Source: Bacteriovoracaceae bacterium (GTDB lineage Bacteria > Bdellovibrionota > Bacteriovoracia > Bacteriovoracales > Bacteriovoracaceae). From it: a stretch of DNA of 64,000 bases. The notes beneath the pieces are model-generated. The model worked only from the letters and a program-made list of their open reading frames with translations, did no database searches and was not told where the DNA came from. The translations under genes were made by a program, and so were the position numbers. How positions within the stretch are numbered: the first letter of the stretch is position 1; each line of letters opens with the position of its first letter. Shown in pieces: positions 12,071 to 21,150 of this stretch. The stretch covers positions 1 through 64,000 of the forward strand of contig CANFHC010000009.1 in NCBI GenBank assembly GCA_947446575.1, in the 5' to 3' direction.

Positions 12071-12901
12071 ATGCGATCAAATATTTGGAAAGGTGCTTTA
12101 AGTTTTGGACTGCTCAATATACCCATCAGTTTGATGAAAGCAGAAAATACCAAAGAAGAAACGCTTCATTTCTCTCTTTTGGATCAAAACGATCTTTCTC
12201 CCATTCAATATAAAAAAATAAATTCTAAAACCGGTAAAGAAGTTCCTTATAAACGCATTGTAAAAGGATATGAGTTTAAAAAAAATCAATATGTCGTTAT
12301 GGATGATAAAGATTTTAAAGCCGCCAATATCGAAGCTACAGGTACTATTGATATCGAAAGTTTTGTTAGCCTAGATGAAATTGATCTTATGTATTTGGAA
12401 AAACCATATTACGTTGTCCCAGAAAAAAATGGAGAAAAAGGTTATCTGCTTCTTTGCAAGGCCTTGAAAAAAAGTCACAAAGCTGCTTTAGGTAAAATGG
12501 TTTTAAGAACTAAGCAGCACTTGGCCCTAATTATCGAGAGAGACAATCACTTAGTCTTAGAGATGATGCGCTTTTCTCATGAGATAATTAAATCAGATGA
12601 GGTGAAATATTTTGATGAATTAAAAAAAAGTAAATGTAGTTCTAAAGAAATGTCCATGGCCCTGGACCTAATCGAAAATATGTCCGAGCCTTGGAAACCC
12701 AAGCAATATAAAGACACTTACTATGATGATTTGAAAAAGATAATTACAAAAAAAATTAATGCAGGGAAAAGAAAAACAATTGAATATGAAAAACCTCAAT
12801 TAGTTAAAACCTCCACCAGCAACGTCATTGATCTTATGCCATTACTTAAAAAAAGTTTAATGAAAGTTTCTAAAACGTCTAACAAACGAAAAAAAGCATG
12901 A
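12071..12901 (+). CDS. ku: Ku DNA end-binding protein
   Basis: Bacterial Ku, 276 residues, forms a homodimeric ring on broken DNA ends and recruits LigD for non-homologous end joining. The N-terminal signature (SNIWKGALSFGLLNIPISL) and the internal IKGYEF/MDDKDF-like region (VKGYEFKKNQYVVMDDKDF) are typical of the family, and the Lys-rich C-terminal tail (about 235-276) fits the DNA- or ligase-contacting extension seen in many bacterial Ku proteins. GGAG 6-7 nt before the ATG supports the start. The stop overlaps the ligD start as ATGA (12898-12901), so the two are translationally coupled. Confidence 0.95.
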   Translation: MRSNIWKGALSFGLLNIPISLMKAENTKEETLHFSLLDQNDLSPIQYKKINSKTGKEVPYKRIVKGYEFKKNQYVVMDDKDFKAANIEATGTIDIESFVSLDEIDLMYLEKPYYVVPEKNGEKGYLLLCKALKKSHKAALGKMVLRTKQHLALIIERDNHLVLEMMRFSHEIIKSDEVKYFDELKKSKCSSKEMSMALDLIENMSEPWKPKQYKDTYYDDLKKIITKKINAGKRKTIEYEKPQLVKTSTSNVIDLMPLLKKSLMKVSKTSNKRKKA

Positions 12902-15231
12902 AAAAAAATTTGAAAGATTATCATCAAAAAAGAAACTTTGAAAAAACACTTGAGCCAAGTGGAAAAAAGATAATTAAAAAAATAAAAAGCTCGAAAGCTC
13001 GTAAACTCCAATTTGTGGTCCAAGAACACCACGCGAGCCATCTGCATTTTGATTTTCGACTTGAGCTCGATGGCGTATTAAAAAGTTGGGCCATTCCCAA
13101 AGGTCCTTCGATGAATCCTGAAGATAAGCGTCTTGCAGTTGAAGTTGAAGATCATCCGCTTGAATATGTAAAATTTCATGGAACAATTCCAAAGGGAGAG
13201 TATGGAGCTGGCAAAGTCTATATATGGGATAAAGGAACATATGAAGTAAAAGGTGATCCACACGCAGGACTTAAAAATGGAAAATTAGAATTTTCACTTA
13301 AGGGTAAAAAACTAAAAGGATTTTTTGTCTTATTACGTCTACAAGATCAAAAAAAAGGAAAACACAATTGGTTGTTAATCAAAATGCATGATGAAAAAAA
13401 AACGACTGTTAAAAATTGGCCTGGATTTATAGAACCACAACTTGCTCTGCTGGTTGATCATCCTCCGACAGAGGCCCATTACGTGCATGAAATTAAGTTT
13501 GATGGATATAGATTACAGGCCCAAATAAGAAATGGAAGGACTAAATTGTTTACAAGAAACGGGCATGATTGGAGTGACAAATTTCCTAGTCTTATTAAAT
13601 CCTTTAATGAGCTTAATTTAGATAACGTTATTTTGGATGGGGAAGCTGTTGTTATAGATAAGAACGGAAAAACAGATTTTGGTTTATTGCATTTAGCTTT
13701 ATCAAATTCTACTGATGAAGAAATCAAAATATTTCTTTTCGATCTCTTTTATTACAACGGACAAGACCTACGCGACTTGAGTCTAAGAGAAAGAAAAGAC
13801 CAGTTGAAAACCATCATACCCAAAAAGCACCACAGTCTTTTTTATTCTGAAGATGTAGATCAAGAAGCGGAGAGTTTTTTTCAATTAAGCTGTAAGCATC
13901 ATTTAGAAGGAATTATTTCTAAAGATTCTTCTGCCCCTTATCAAAAAGGCAGAAGTAGAGTTTGGTGTAAATCTAAATGTTCTCAAAGACAAGAGATGGT
14001 TATCGGTGGTTATACTACCGGAAAAGGGAATCGTAGTGCTGAGCTCGGAGCCTTATTGCTGGGAGTTTATGATAAAAATAAATTTAGATATGTCGGAAAA
14101 GTTGGGACAGGGTTTAATCGACAGACACTGCGAGAATTAAAAGATTTGGTTAAAGAGTTGGAACAGAGTAAATCAGCGTTTGATCTCAATACTCCTACAG
14201 GTAAAGAAATTCATTGGCTCAAACCGAAATTAGTGGCAGAAGTAAATTTTTCAGAGTGGACGAGTGATAAGTCTTTAAGGCATCCAGTTTTCATAGGACT
14301 TAGGGATGATAAAGACAGTAAAGAGATTGTTGAAGAAGTTGAAGTTCATATTGAAAATGATGAGCAAAGTGTGAAATTCACACATCCAGAAAAAATAATA
14401 TATAAAAACGAAAAAATAACCAAATCGATAATTGTTGATTATTATAGAGAAGTTTCAGATTTATTTTTGCAATTTTCAAAAGATCGTCCGTTATCATTAG
14501 TTCGTTGTCCAAATGGTTCGAGTCAAAAATGTTTTTATCAAAAGCATCCGGGATTAGGACAAACACTTAATTTATTAAAAAAATTTAAAGTGAAAGAAAA
14601 GTCAAAGTCCACAACTTATACAGCATTGGAAAACTTTTTAGGACTCAAACAATTAGTGCAAATGAATGCACTTGAAATCCATGTTTGGAATACTCATTAC
14701 CAAAAATTAATGTCGCCAGATCAAGTCGTGTTGGATTTTGATCCGGACCCGAGTGTGAGTTTTAAAGCTGTCGTAAGTGCAGTGAAAGAGATGAAAAAAA
14801 TATTAGATAAATTAAAACTAAAGAGTTTCGTCAAAACAACTGGAGGGAAAGGGTTACATATTCATATTCCCATTGCCGCTATTTATACTTGGGATGAAGT
14901 CCGAGCTTTTGCAAGAGCTCTTGCTGATATCATGGTGGAGAATGCTCCGGACAAATATATTGCAACCATGTCCAAAGAAAAAAGGAAGGGAAAAATATTT
15001 ATCGATTATTTAAGAAATGGATTTGGAGCTACAGCAATTGCTCCCTATTCATTGCGAGCACGTGCTTTAAGCTCAGTGGCCATGCCTCTAGAGTGGAGTG
15101 AACTTGCAAGCTTAAAGAGTAGTGATTTTTTCACACTCAAAAAAGCCCTCTTAAAAATTAAGTCTCGAAAAAAAGATCCATGGGAAAAAATAAACTCACT
15201 TGAACAAAAAATTCCACTCTATTCGAAATAA
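12898..15231 (+). CDS. ligD: Multifunctional DNA ligase D
   Basis: LigD, 777 residues, with its three enzyme domains in the order phosphoesterase - ligase - polymerase. The N-terminal 3'-phosphoesterase domain (about 30-150) shows HHASHLHFDFRLE and the later GEYG block. The ATP-dependent ligase domain (about 175-480) has the adenylated lysine in the motif K200-F-D-G203 and a GEAVV motif; an OB-fold part follows. The primase-polymerase domain (about 500-770) has LDFDPDPS as the metal-binding site and TTGGKGLHIH. It trims, fills and seals DNA ends bound by Ku. The ATGA overlap with ku, with no other NHEJ genes near, makes this a two-gene operon. It abuts the convergent FAD/Rieske gene with no spacer. 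Confidence 0.95.
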   Translation: MKKNLKDYHQKRNFEKTLEPSGKKIIKKIKSSKARKLQFVVQEHHASHLHFDFRLELDGVLKSWAIPKGPSMNPEDKRLAVEVEDHPLEYVKFHGTIPKGEYGAGKVYIWDKGTYEVKGDPHAGLKNGKLEFSLKGKKLKGFFVLLRLQDQKKGKHNWLLIKMHDEKKTTVKNWPGFIEPQLALLVDHPPTEAHYVHEIKFDGYRLQAQIRNGRTKLFTRNGHDWSDKFPSLIKSFNELNLDNVILDGEAVVIDKNGKTDFGLLHLALSNSTDEEIKIFLFDLFYYNGQDLRDLSLRERKDQLKTIIPKKHHSLFYSEDVDQEAESFFQLSCKHHLEGIISKDSSAPYQKGRSRVWCKSKCSQRQEMVIGGYTTGKGNRSAELGALLLGVYDKNKFRYVGKVGTGFNRQTLRELKDLVKELEQSKSAFDLNTPTGKEIHWLKPKLVAEVNFSEWTSDKSLRHPVFIGLRDDKDSKEIVEEVEVHIENDEQSVKFTHPEKIIYKNEKITKSIIVDYYREVSDLFLQFSKDRPLSLVRCPNGSSQKCFYQKHPGLGQTLNLLKKFKVKEKSKSTTYTALENFLGLKQLVQMNALEIHVWNTHYQKLMSPDQVVLDFDPDPSVSFKAVVSAVKEMKKILDKLKLKSFVKTTGGKGLHIHIPIAAIYTWDEVRAFARALADIMVENAPDKYIATMSKEKRKGKIFIDYLRNGFGATAIAPYSLRARALSSVAMPLEWSELASLKSSDFFTLKKALLKIKSRKKDPWEKINSLEQKIPLYSK

Positions 15232-16866
15232 TTATAAAGCCGGATCAATTGTTGGAGTTTCCCAAACTTTAATTGTCTTTGGTGGATGAAGTGCACCTTC
15301 TTTAAACGGAGTTAAATCCATACATGCTGGACCTTCTATAACTTTACCAACACAATCAAATCGCGAACCATGACAAGGACAATCCCAAGATTTTTCAGCA
15401 GTATTCCAACGGACAATTCCTCCTAGATGAGGACAGACTGCTGAGTTTAAAGTTAAATTTCCAGTATTATCTTTATAAGCTGCTACGATGTGAAGGCCAT
15501 CGCGATAGACAATACCTTCACCAGTTTCTAATTCTTCAATTTCAAGAGATTTGCTTTCGATAAACCAATCTTTGTATTGAGCAAGAGTATTGGCATTTTC
15601 TTTTATATAATTGCCGACAGAACTCATACTTATCCGTGAAGGACTATAAAGGCTGGTCCATGGATTTTCTCGCTCTAAAATTAAATCAGAAAGCATCATT
15701 CCTGCAATCGCTGAGTAAGTCATACCATTTCCAGAGTGCCCAGTAACGACGTAGACATTATCTTTGTCCATTGGATTTTTGCCGATAAATGCCAAACCAT
15801 CAACTGTTTCCATTACATGACCTGACCATCGAAAAAGAATTCGGCCAGCATCTGGAAATCTTTTTCTCGTCCAGTTCTCCAATCGTGTATAGCAATGTTC
15901 AGGATTATCCTTTTGGCCTGTTTTGTGATCTTCACCACCAACTAGTAAAAGTTCGTGAGTTTCGGTGGCATCTTTTTGTAAGCGAATGTAGTGATAAGGA
16001 TCGTTGCTGTCCCAGTAGAGCCCCTTAATCATTTGCGACTTTGGAATTTCCAGGGCAATGACGTATGTGCGATAAGAAGCTTGTTTAGTATGAATCGCAA
16101 CTAAATCATTTATTGGACTATTAGTAGCAACAACAATTGAATCACAAGTAACGAGATGATCGTTTTGCAATCTTGCGTAGGCAGCTTCTCCACCAACGAC
16201 TTCAATTACATGTGAATTTGTATAAATTTTTCCCCCACGTGCAACAAAAATTTCGGCCATTGCTTTTAAATATTTTAAAGGATGGAGTTGTAATTGATTG
16301 GGATAGCAAAGTGCAGGGCCAGGGTCAAAAGAAGAGAGTGGAATTCTCTCAGTCATATAAACATCATTTAATCCTAATCGCTGCAACGACTCTAATTCTT
16401 TATTTAAATATTCTTGACTAATTTCTCGATTGCTTTGCAAAGTGTAATTAGGAATTTCATCTTCGGAGGCAGCAAATAAATACCCATTGATTCTCTCCAT
16501 GTCACAGTCTATTTTTTCTGATGTGATTATATCTGCAACTTTAGCTATGGCAGCGATATGACTTTCGGCCGCAAGTTTTGCACCTTTTTCCCCATGATAT
16601 TTTTCTAGGATATGATAGCGTTCATCTAGAGCGTAGGTGAATTGAGCCGTTGTTCTTCCACTTTGGCCACTGCCAATTTCAAATCCTTCCAAGATGCAAA
16701 CTTTTCTTCCTTCTTTTTGTAAAAGATAAGCAGTTGTTAATCCCGCAAGGCCAGCACCAATTATGCAGACTTCAGTGCTAATATCTTCTGTGAGAGTAGG
16801 GAAAATAGGCATTTTAATGGATTGATTCCATGTTGAAACGCTTTCTCCGTGATGTAATGCGATCAT
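15232..16866 (-). CDS. FAD-dependent oxidoreductase fused to a Rieske domain
   Basis: A 544-residue fusion. The N-terminal DAO-type FAD domain begins near residue 28 with the dinucleotide motif GAGLAGLTTAYLLQ and contains the second conserved block VVTGHSGNGMTYSA near 370-385. The C-terminal part (about 430-530) is a Rieske [2Fe-2S] domain with ligands C478-P-H480 and C496-P-C-H499. This architecture is known from proteins like Bacillus YhfW, whose substrate is not established. No signal peptide, so it is cytosolic. AAGGAA before the ATG supports the start. The gene converges on ligD with no gap and has no same-strand neighbour, so it is probably transcribed alone. Confidence 0.85.
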   Translation of the reverse strand: MIALHHGESVSTWNQSIKMPIFPTLTEDISTEVCIIGAGLAGLTTAYLLQKEGRKVCILEGFEIGSGQSGRTTAQFTYALDERYHILEKYHGEKGAKLAAESHIAAIAKVADIITSEKIDCDMERINGYLFAASEDEIPNYTLQSNREISQEYLNKELESLQRLGLNDVYMTERIPLSSFDPGPALCYPNQLQLHPLKYLKAMAEIFVARGGKIYTNSHVIEVVGGEAAYARLQNDHLVTCDSIVVATNSPINDLVAIHTKQASYRTYVIALEIPKSQMIKGLYWDSNDPYHYIRLQKDATETHELLLVGGEDHKTGQKDNPEHCYTRLENWTRKRFPDAGRILFRWSGHVMETVDGLAFIGKNPMDKDNVYVVTGHSGNGMTYSAIAGMMLSDLILERENPWTSLYSPSRISMSSVGNYIKENANTLAQYKDWFIESKSLEIEELETGEGIVYRDGLHIVAAYKDNTGNLTLNSAVCPHLGGIVRWNTAEKSWDCPCHGSRFDCVGKVIEGPACMDLTPFKEGALHPPKTIKVWETPTIDPAL

Positions 16867-17012: not shown

Positions 17013-17041
17013 TTGTCTTATGAAAGAGCTCATTTAATAAT
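17013..17041 (+). promoter_or_regulatory. Promoter of the exported NADAR gene, leaderless
   Basis: TTGTCT (17013-17018) and AATAAT (17036-17041) are 17 nt apart, matching 4/6 and 5/6 of consensus. The -10 box ends 6 nt before the ATG at 17048 and there is no Shine-Dalgarno, so the transcript would start at or next to the ATG. Confidence 0.55.
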
Positions 17042-17047
17042 TTTGTC

Positions 17048-17620
17048 ATGAAAATTTTATTTTTTTTTGCCTTGATTGTGACTCATGTAACCCTCTGTTT
17101 GGCAGACATGAATGTGGAAGATATTCCTCATTACAAAATTTATCCACGTACACCACTAGCAGACTATAAAGCTGCAATTCTAGATTTTTATTCTGTTAAA
17201 AACCCTTATGGTGAATTTTCTAACTTTGCTTTATTTCCTATTACAATTGAAAATAGTATTTGGCCTTCCAGCGAACATTTTTATCAAGCCCAAAAATTTC
17301 TAGATCCAGAATTAAAAGAAAAAGTTAGAAATGCAGGAACTCCATTTTTAGCCGCCCAAATAGGTCGTGATCCAAATCTTCCAATGAGAGATGATTGGGA
17401 CAACGTAAAAGACGGGATTATGCTAATTGCCCTTAGAGCGAAGTTCTCCCAATATAAAATACTTCATGACCTATTACTTTCAACTAACAAAGCTCATATA
17501 TATGAACATACTAAAAATGATTGTTACTGGGCCGATTGTGAAGACCGAAGCGGAGAGAATCGTTTAGGAAAAGAGCTAATGCAAGTGCGTGATGAATTGA
17601 CTCAAGCCTCGACTCTCTAG
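17048..17620 (+). CDS. NADAR-domain protein with a signal peptide
   Basis: A 190-residue protein combining an N-terminal Sec signal peptide (about 1-19, hydrophobic core FFFALIVTHVTLC, cleavage near LCLA/D) with a full NADAR (YbiA-like) domain from about residue 45. Diagnostic blocks are YGEFSNFA, WPSSEHFYQAQKF, a region RAKFSQY and ENRLGKELM. Characterised NADAR proteins are cytosolic: YbiA-type enzymes cleave N-glycosidic bonds in riboflavin intermediates, and others remove ADP-ribose from DNA guanine. An exported copy is unexpected; it may act on ADP-ribose-like substrates in the periplasm or outside. No DarT-like toxin is beside it. The mature part has two Cys (CYWADC) that could form a disulfide. 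Confidence 0.8.
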   Translation: MKILFFFALIVTHVTLCLADMNVEDIPHYKIYPRTPLADYKAAILDFYSVKNPYGEFSNFALFPITIENSIWPSSEHFYQAQKFLDPELKEKVRNAGTPFLAAQIGRDPNLPMRDDWDNVKDGIMLIALRAKFSQYKILHDLLLSTNKAHIYEHTKNDCYWADCEDRSGENRLGKELMQVRDELTQASTL

Positions 17621-18662: not shown

Positions 18663-19970
18663 TTAATGAATCGTACTAGCGTTTTCTAGTCCTTTTAGTA
18701 AATCAATTCTTCCACCCGAAAACATTTTGTTTTTAAAACTATCAACTTTTGTTACAGAATTAATTAACACATCTTTAAGTTGTTTATATGTCAGCTGCGG
18801 ATAATGAGAAAGAATTTCTGCTGCTACACCCACTGTCGTTGGAGTGGCCATAGATGTTCCAGACATAGATTCGTATTTGTTACCAGGTACGGTTGAAAAA
18901 ATATTTGATCCCGGAGCTGCGACGTCTACATTGATTTTTCCATAATTAGAAAAATAACTCATTCCACCTCCACTGCTACTTGCTGCAATGATAAGTAGAT
19001 TGGCATTATCAAAACTAGCAGGATACGTAGGATTTTTGTCAATATCAGATGATTCATTTCCAGCGGCTGCAATAACTAATACACCATAATTATCAGCAAT
19101 ATATTTTAGTGTATCAGGGATAAGTCTTTTTCCTTCATTATTACTTTTCCCAAAAGAGCAGTTAATAATTTTGGCTCCATTTTTAGCAGCGTATACAAAA
19201 GCTTCAGCTACATCAACATCGGTTTCATCACCATCATTTGGAACTGTTCTAATTCCCATGATTTTTACATTTGAAGCAATTCCTGCAATACCAATTCCAT
19301 TGTTTTGTTTTGCTGCAATCGTGCCTGAAACATGAGTTCCATGCGAGTGAGTGTCTTTGTTATTAACAGTCGCTTTTCCGTTTGCGTCTCTGATTAGAGT
19401 GTTAATACCGTATACATCATCGATGTATCCGTTATTGTCATCATCAATACCATTGCCCGGTATTTCACCTGGATTTTTCCAGATAACATCTTTTAAGTCT
19501 TCATGTTGAGTATCTACACCAGTATCGACCACGGCTACGATCACAGGAGATGTATTGCTTGTTCCGTAAAGTTTATAAGCGCTGTTAACTGATACGCCAT
19601 TTTGAGCAGCATCTAAAAAAGACCAAACTCGACTCACGAGTGGGTCGTTAAACTGAGAGTCCTGAGCGTTTAATTTATCAGAGGTAATTGTTGAGTTTTT
19701 ATCAGGCAATGGAAGTGTTCGTCTTTCAGAGCGGTGATTTCTCTCTGTGTACTCGATAGCAGGATTATTTTTTAATTGATTAAGAAGGGCCTTAATGTCA
19801 TTGGTTCTTAATACATAAGTAGTTCCGAAAAGATTTTGCACACTTTTAACATTTGTAAGAGTGGGTAAATTTGTTCCTGGTTTTAATTTTACAATCAGTT
19901 CAGTGGGAGTGTCGGAAGCAAGTGAGAGGTTGAGAGACAAAAGCATTGTAGTGACAAGTAGTAGTTTCAT
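18663..19970 (-). CDS. Exported subtilisin-like serine protease (S8 family)
   Basis: A 435-residue secreted protease. Signal peptide (about 1-17), an inhibitor-like propeptide (about 20-85, ELIVKLKPG to the NPAIEYTERNH region) and a peptidase S8 domain with the catalytic triad Asp149 (VAVVDTGVD), His210 (HGTHVSGT) and Ser373 (SGTSMATP). The oxyanion Asn is in AAAGNES. A DDDNNGYIDDVYG stretch is a likely calcium-binding insertion. It is probably self-activated after export and degrades proteins outside the cell. Two ATGs compete; the second (19970) is chosen because AGGA lies 8 nt before it, whereas the first ATG (19979) directly abuts the same sequence. Confidence 0.9.
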   Translation of the reverse strand: MKLLLVTTMLLSLNLSLASDTPTELIVKLKPGTNLPTLTNVKSVQNLFGTTYVLRTNDIKALLNQLKNNPAIEYTERNHRSERRTLPLPDKNSTITSDKLNAQDSQFNDPLVSRVWSFLDAAQNGVSVNSAYKLYGTSNTSPVIVAVVDTGVDTQHEDLKDVIWKNPGEIPGNGIDDDNNGYIDDVYGINTLIRDANGKATVNNKDTHSHGTHVSGTIAAKQNNGIGIAGIASNVKIMGIRTVPNDGDETDVDVAEAFVYAAKNGAKIINCSFGKSNNEGKRLIPDTLKYIADNYGVLVIAAAGNESSDIDKNPTYPASFDNANLLIIAASSSGGGMSYFSNYGKINVDVAAPGSNIFSTVPGNKYESMSGTSMATPTTVGVAAEILSHYPQLTYKQLKDVLINSVTKVDSFKNKMFSGGRIDLLKGLENASTIH

Positions 19971-20208
19971 TATATTCATCCTTGAAAATAATTTAAGTGT
20001 AGTTACTTGAATAATAATAAGAGACGAATTTTAAAAGTGGAATTTGATGTGAGGAGATGTTTGAAGATATTGACCGTGCGATTTTGTCAGAAAAATGGAT
20101 TAGTTAATTCTGGCCTAAAAAAGCTAAATCTGACTTGATTATGGTAGTGAATTGGTTGAGTATGAAAATTCTCTAAACGATAGGTAAAAAAATCCGAGAA
20201 GTCTGTTC

Positions 20209-21150
20209 ATGAAGAACGTACTTTTCATTTTGACCTTTTTTTGTTTAAGTCCTGCAGCTTACTCTGAACACAAAGTTTTCGATGTGGAAGAGGAGCTTAA
20301 TTTAAATGATCCTTGGTACCAAAAAAACCGCTCTGACGAAGAAAATTTTAAGCGATTGGTCAAAGGCTTGGAAAAAGTTCCAAGTGGAAAAAAAGTCATT
20401 GAGAAAGCGAGGGAAAAAGCTGCACAAAGAGGATTTACTCTTTACGATGTTGTGGCCATCGGTGATGGGTCGCTTACTGATACAACTCTAATTCGCAGGT
20501 TTTCTGCCTCAAACCCTGCTGAGGTTATGTATGAAACGAAATCCAAAGTTTATTTAAACCGTCATTTGCATACATTGGATGCTCTCTTAGATTTTGCTCA
20601 TGAGTTAACTCACTACACCTACCGAGAAGCTTTTAATCCCTATGATCACCATTTTGCCCTGAAGGATTTTATCAAAGGGACAGTTGAGGGACGAGGGGGA
20701 GAAGTTGACGCATACATGGTTGAATGCAAAGTTTTATTTGAACTTTTGCCCACAACTGGATCAGGCCGCTCGAATTGCTTGAAAGTTTTTGACAAAAAAA
20801 TAGGTGCCATCTCAAAAGAATTGGGTGTGCAAGAATTCTACAAAGTGGGAAATCACTATGGAGACTTTAAAAAAGATATCGAAAAATTTTCTTTAACTGA
20901 CAAAGATATGCCAAAGGCGACAGACGGCGAAGCTTTTTTTATTTCTTCAGCCTGGGGCCTTCCTTATCCTGTTGCAGCAGTTAAAGAGTATGCCAATATA
21001 ATGGATCGTGTCTGCAAGAACGATCAAAATCGGCTCACATTGATGCAAAATAAAATTACTCGTACTCCAGCCTCGAACGAAGCGCAAAGTGCCTATAAAA
21101 CTATGTTCGAAGATTTCAAAATCCGCTGCGATAAATTCACCCAAATTTAA
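20209..21150 (+). CDS. Exported protein with HExxH metallopeptidase motif
   Basis: A 313-residue protein with a signal peptide (about 1-19, PAAYSE) and a zinc-protease-like site: H131-E132-L-T-H135, followed about 30 residues later by E165 in the segment GRGGEVDAYMVE, the spacing expected of a gluzincin third ligand. A third histidine cluster, DHHF, lies between. Six Cys in the second half could form disulfides. I do not recognise a named family, and zinc binding is inferred only from the motif. The likely role is an exported peptidase. No same-strand neighbour is close; the nuo operon begins 119 nt downstream with its own promoter. Confidence 0.7.
   Translation: MKNVLFILTFFCLSPAAYSEHKVFDVEEELNLNDPWYQKNRSDEENFKRLVKGLEKVPSGKKVIEKAREKAAQRGFTLYDVVAIGDGSLTDTTLIRRFSASNPAEVMYETKSKVYLNRHLHTLDALLDFAHELTHYTYREAFNPYDHHFALKDFIKGTVEGRGGEVDAYMVECKVLFELLPTTGSGRSNCLKVFDKKIGAISKELGVQEFYKVGNHYGDFKKDIEKFSLTDKDMPKATDGEAFFISSAWGLPYPVAAVKEYANIMDRVCKNDQNRLTLMQNKITRTPASNEAQSAYKTMFEDFKIRCDKFTQI

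Follow-up and report, generated by a model that had tools for sequence, protein, structure and literature searches.

A YbiA-type NADAR protein with a conserved export signal in Bacteriovoracaceae and other Bdellovibrionota

The window analysed here is a 64,000-nucleotide stretch from a member of the Bacteriovoracaceae. On its forward strand an open reading frame at 17048–17620, opening with ATG, encodes a protein of 190 amino acids that consists of a predicted signal peptide (residues 1–19, 17048–17104), an N-terminal extension (residues 20–46, 17105–17185) and a NADAR domain (residues 47–184, 17186–17599). It is the only NADAR gene in the 3.39 Mb assembly. A Rieske-FAD oxidoreductase gene lies beside it on the other strand (15232–16866, reverse; an FAD-dependent oxidoreductase with a Rieske domain fused at its C-terminus) and a transglycosylase gene on its other side. 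Across 26 loci compared no neighbour is conserved, and other lineages place the gene among unrelated genes. The original prediction had seen no DarT-type partner next to the gene; there is none, and DarT (PF14487) gave no match at an E-value of 0.01 in the whole assembly, which is 95.5% complete, so that identity as one half of a DarT–NADAR toxin-antitoxin pair was rejected. The genome does encode GTP cyclohydrolase II, and the cell therefore probably makes riboflavin without any cytosolic NADAR.

The NADAR domain is complete, as first read from the motifs SSEHFYQAQKF and ENRLGKEL; both are present, as is CYWADC. It matches PF08719 over profile positions 2–162 of 163 with 105.2 bits (E 5.6e-30, cut-off 35.1). 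The best NCBIfam model is TIGR02464, the riboflavin biosynthesis intermediates N-glycosidase (113.6 bits, cut-off 73.7); a score of 86.4 bits against a cut-off of 240 means that the protein is not a member of NF053876, the NADAR anti-phage protein DS32_2. The best solved relative is E. coli YbiA (2b3w, E 2.2e-45), with 44% identity over 159 aligned residues. The AF2 model has a pLDDT of 93, with only residues 1–20 of low confidence, and its fold matches YbiA with Z 21.2, the ADP-ribose-bound NADAR of Phytophthora nicotianae (8bau) with Z 18.1 and that of Geobacter lovleyi (8bat) with Z 8.9.

Alignment to the Phytophthora structure pairs Glu76 and Lys83 (17273–17296, forward strand) with E43 and K50, Arg107 with R79, Trp117 with W89, Lys121 with R93, and Glu153, Asp158 and Trp161 (17504–17530, forward strand) with E125, D130 and W133; PMC11543638 gives these eight as ADP-ribose contacts and catalytic residues. 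In an alignment of 67 proteins, 21 exported and 46 others, E76, K83, W117, E153, D158 and W161 are invariant in every sequence and R107 and K121 nearly so. A glutamate at the E125 position, rather than aspartate or histidine, is what defines the YbiA subfamily in the same source, and Glu153 is such a glutamate. With its mapped ADP-ribose pocket intact, the protein is very probably catalytically active.

The signal peptide has a single lysine and an uncharged hydrophobic core whose best 11-residue mean hydropathy is 2.64, and ends at a predicted signal peptidase I site after Ala19, between MKILFFFALIVTHVTLCLA and the next residue, Asp; the site reads CLA, with Cys at −3 and Ala at −1. As with all export signals described here it was assigned by simple rules and by eye, and it is conserved in every orthologue read. 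In the AF2 model this segment has a pLDDT of 52–57 against at least 93 for the remainder. The extension that follows (PHYxxYPxTP..Y...ILD) is confidently folded in the model and conserved in the exported clade; cytosolic relatives lack it, starting 2–10 residues ahead of the NADAR domain.

Immediately upstream, on the same strand, is a promoter-like element at 17013–17041: TTGTCT (17013–17018), a 17-base spacer and AATAAT (17036–17041), which ends 6 bases before the ATG. Taken alone, a single consensus match of this kind is not above chance, and the evidence for a promoter is therefore its positional conservation. The −35/−10 pair stands at a roughly constant distance before the ATG at all ten loci of the genus, where the −10 ends about six bases upstream of the start, and likewise at L018. 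This placement suggests a leaderless message. No clear ribosome-binding site was seen upstream of 17048, which is explained by the position of the promoter directly before the ATG. The conserved placement of the promoter supports the ATG at 17048 as the start. An internal start at Met21 (17108), the next ATG in the frame, was rejected, since Met21 is unconserved among orthologues, all of which keep the signal, and the promoter directly precedes 17048.

Within the genus the gene is present in 10 of 14 genomes and all ten carriers have the export signal. The hydrophobic signal is kept in all nine genus orthologues despite variation in its sequence and this, together with the constant promoter placement, puts the signal beyond chance. 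That the window protein is actually exported through the Sec pathway is, on these sequence features, highly likely.

In the family as a whole 24 matches exceed the Pfam cut-off; 21 are of YbiA type and every one of these is exported, several with a lipobox. Two different NADARs from the same family (L022 and L023) have no signal. L024, from a different genus of this family, is a fusion protein of 585 residues in which an N-terminal hydrophobic stretch is combined with a C-terminal divergent NADAR. The exported YbiA-type form occurs in 35 of the 369 genomes of the phylum and, in the genus Bdellovibrio, in 12 of 24. All orthologues read in Bacteriovoracaceae, Halobacteriovorax and Bdellovibrio begin with a signal peptide or a lipoprotein signal, and Bacteriovorax sp. 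DB6_IX is a carrier among these relatives. Those read from Bdellovibrio are mostly lipoprotein-like, with sites of the SC|AH type, some of which could alternatively be cut by signal peptidase I. Homologues beginning past the hydrophobic segment would have counted against the original prediction of export; no close homologue does so.

Outside the phylum the picture is different. Among the 80 best loci, read in the same way, the 59 NADARs that come from other phyla include none with a convincing signal; the hydropathy outliers L077 and L097 were set aside because the hydrophobic stretch lies far ahead of the probable start, and L087 because the start read was a GTG 205 codons upstream. No export signal was found in the six NADARs of a viral-contig scan, nor in the 26 Myxococcota NADARs that could be located, which look cytosolic by the same test. 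Export is therefore a trait of Bdellovibrionota NADARs and not of predators generally. Its relatives place the source organism in the Bacteriovoracaceae, which include known predators, and it may be a predator itself. Because the signal is conserved in Bdellovibrio-like, largely predatory bacteria, the YbiA-type NADAR probably works outside the cytoplasm in these organisms.

A tree was built from 138 columns, leaving out the cysteine loop and five long-branched rows. In it the 29 exported proteins form one side of one branch (support 81, which is not strong), and the addition of L042 to this group is not rejected (p-AU 0.665). The simplest reading of these 138 columns would be one early gain of export. 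An origin from phage was rejected, as the viral-contig scan yielded only distant NADARs lacking a signal; some viral NADARs are placed near, yet outside, the exported group. L042 (the same gene as L160) is an exported protein of 452 residues whose NADAR lies at the C-terminus; the N-terminal part, about 300 residues long, is of unassigned kind.

Cys159 and Cys164 (CYWADC; 17522–17539, forward strand) had been proposed to suit an oxidising compartment, and their distribution agrees with this. Both are present in 14 of the 21 exported proteins and neither in 7, and no cysteine occurs at either position in the 46 non-exported aligned proteins. The pair (CYWxDC, CX4C) brackets Trp161 and adjoins Asp158, whose counterparts both contact ADP-ribose in the Phytophthora enzyme (PMC11543638). 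Since the cysteines occur both or neither a disulfide is expected, and a C159–C164 bond across the active-site loop is likely. Three changes are required on the tree to explain the pair, and it cannot be essential, because a third of the exported proteins do without it.

Weak Pfam matches led to a distinct second family, of the pattern YPxxWWxPV...SKRNELGILSNF...PPAWxYxxIW. Its matches to NADAR and to gp30.3 (PF08010) are weak, below the Pfam cut-off where shown; hhalign against the NADAR profile gives a probability of 98.7. This gp30.3-like family is found in 111 of the 369 genomes, in some as two copies, and is absent from the genome of the window. All 30 members read begin with a signal peptide or lipobox (examples are L026:1366–1974, L027:1342–2007 and L177–L206). 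No member was found in viral contigs, and the 24 genomes reached via other loci gave nothing above 26 bits. The family resembles phage gp30.3 weakly but sits on the chromosome and is exported, and the window protein differs from gp30.3 in being of YbiA type. In the 24 genomes of the genus Bdellovibrio the YbiA-type form (12 genomes) and the second family (9) never occur together (hypergeometric 1.7e-4, without correction for phylogeny). A complementary distribution across the phylum was rejected, the two being independent there (odds ratio 0.79, p 0.70), and 137 of the 369 genomes have either or both.

The window protein clearly belongs to the NADAR family; what is new is its location. It has pocket residues and the YbiA-type glutamate in common with E. 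coli YbiA, which has neither an export signal nor the CX4C pair; the exported clade adds its conserved N-terminal extension. The Phytophthora enzyme has a like fold and like ADP-ribose contacts, and is also a stand-alone gene without DarT (PMC11543638), but is eukaryotic, is only 28% identical and has an insertion, and that paper describes no export. The DarT1-associated NADAR antitoxins (BC4488 subfamily, including the G. lovleyi protein) belong to the same superfamily; in contrast to them, the window protein is exported, comes from a genome without DarT, has Glu rather than Asp at the catalytic position and lacks their kind of DNA-binding extension. The YbiA–YarT pair of the myxobacterium Chondromyces crocatus likewise combines a YbiA-type NADAR with a predatory-bacteria context, and guanine de-ADP-ribosylation has been shown for it (PMC11125620). 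That YbiA is, however, encoded beside a toxic transferase and is apparently cytosolic, whereas no neighbour of the window gene is conserved. Searches of the open-licence literature, including passages of PMC11125620, PMC11543638, PMC11833690 and PMC9503650, gave no description of an exported NADAR, consistent with what was originally claimed. NADARs are usually regarded as intracellular, acting in riboflavin damage control or in reversing toxin marks. It is unusual that a family whose enzymes are otherwise cytosolic has been relocated in two lineages, in a conserved manner and with paired cysteines.

The best-supported reading is that the protein is an N-ribosidase outside the cytoplasm. Sec would carry the N-glycosidase over the inner membrane, the signal peptide would be removed, and the mature protein would fold in the periplasm, where the CX4C disulfide would hold the loop bearing Asp158 and Trp161. 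The enzyme would then hydrolyse N-ribosidic bonds in a substrate encountered either in its own envelope or in prey contents, so as to detoxify it or to liberate the base and ADP-ribose for uptake. The likeliest substrate class would be guanine-linked ADP-ribose, carried by nucleotides or nucleic acid, or else a ribosylated base of a related kind. We know of no source of extracellular guanine-ADP-ribose in these bacteria. This substrate is favoured because, once the riboflavin intermediates are set aside as cytosolic, it is the one on which activity is shown across the superfamily: all NADARs assayed in PMC11125620 and PMC11833690 strip ADP-ribose from guanine. The strong in-cell specificity of NADARs described in the first of these means, however, that such activity in vitro is not proof of the natural substrate. 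By analogy, guanine-ADP-ribose has a little short of an even chance of being the substrate, and export, activity and this substrate class taken jointly, leaving aside any step in predation, are put forward tentatively, at somewhat lower likelihood.

Alternatively, the protein could be an exported form of the YbiA activity on riboflavin intermediates, clearing reactive precursors that have leaked or come from prey. The TIGR02464 match, the YbiA-type glutamate, the core fold and the likely presence of the pathway all fit this. These intermediates are, however, produced and retained in the cytosol, where damage control needs no export, the export signal argues against cytosolic action, and the gene lies away from riboflavin genes in every lineage read; this reading is unlikely. 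Somewhat less likely again is the hydrolysis of small NAD-derived signals or cofactors, such as cyclic ADP-ribose, from prey defence or dying prey. The ADP-ribose pocket is complete, and phage NADARs have been proposed, from genomics only, to target low-molecular-weight ADP-ribose derivatives (PMC9503650), but no experiment was found that shows this for any NADAR, and such signals operate in the prey cytosol. It is also conceivable, at poor odds, that the enzyme protects the envelope of its own cell, or nucleic acids and nucleotides that the cell secretes, from the exported guanine-specific ADP-ribosyltransferases (ScARP-like) of competitors. Streptomyces secretes such transferases and NADARs reverse their mark (PMC11833690); against this, the known toxin targets (DNA, RNA and nucleotides) are intracellular, so that an eraser in the periplasm would encounter them only outside cells, and the search of its own genome for transferases covered DarT only. 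A cytosolic protein translated from Met21, with the hydrophobic stretch untranslated or non-functional, is very improbable: the missing ribosome-binding site that might favour it is accounted for by the promoter, and it cannot explain a signal in all orthologues or the lipoprotein signals of relatives.

Returning to an N-ribosidase outside the cytoplasm, its release into prey and its action on a substrate outside the cell, both raised in the original prediction, would go a step further. Free release does not hold for all relatives: many are lipoprotein-like, including most of those read from Bdellovibrio. Furthermore, a study cited in PMC7174725 predicts a secretome of 42.4% of the proteins of Bdellovibrio HD100, and with so large a secretome export alone speaks only weakly for a part in predation. 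The chance that the exported NADAR has a role in predation may be put at about even. It is doubtful that both lineages, YbiA-type and gp30.3-like, were recruited as envelope- or prey-directed hydrolases of ADP-ribosylated bases in predation; there the enzymes might, for example, remove the ADP-ribose that prey defences have put on bases, making the nucleic acids of the prey digestible and salvageable. If so, bacterial predation would include a counter-defence or salvage step that has gone unrecognised. That a phylum with well-known predators exports NADARs in two separate lineages suggests that ADP-ribosylated bases or similar N-ribosides occur beyond the cytoplasm, and bears on whether ADP-ribosylation chemistry matters for predation.

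Two other gene groups in the window may be recorded. At 12071–15231 a Ku gene immediately precedes the gene for a full LigD (3'-phosphoesterase, ligase and primase-polymerase), which makes up a bacterial end-joining pair with it. The gene at 20209–21150 encodes an N-terminal signal-like stretch and an HELTH motif and weakly matches DUF6782, a family of putative metallopeptidases, below the cut-off; its product is possibly an exported peptidase, and it lies beside the gene for an exported subtilase at 18663–19979.
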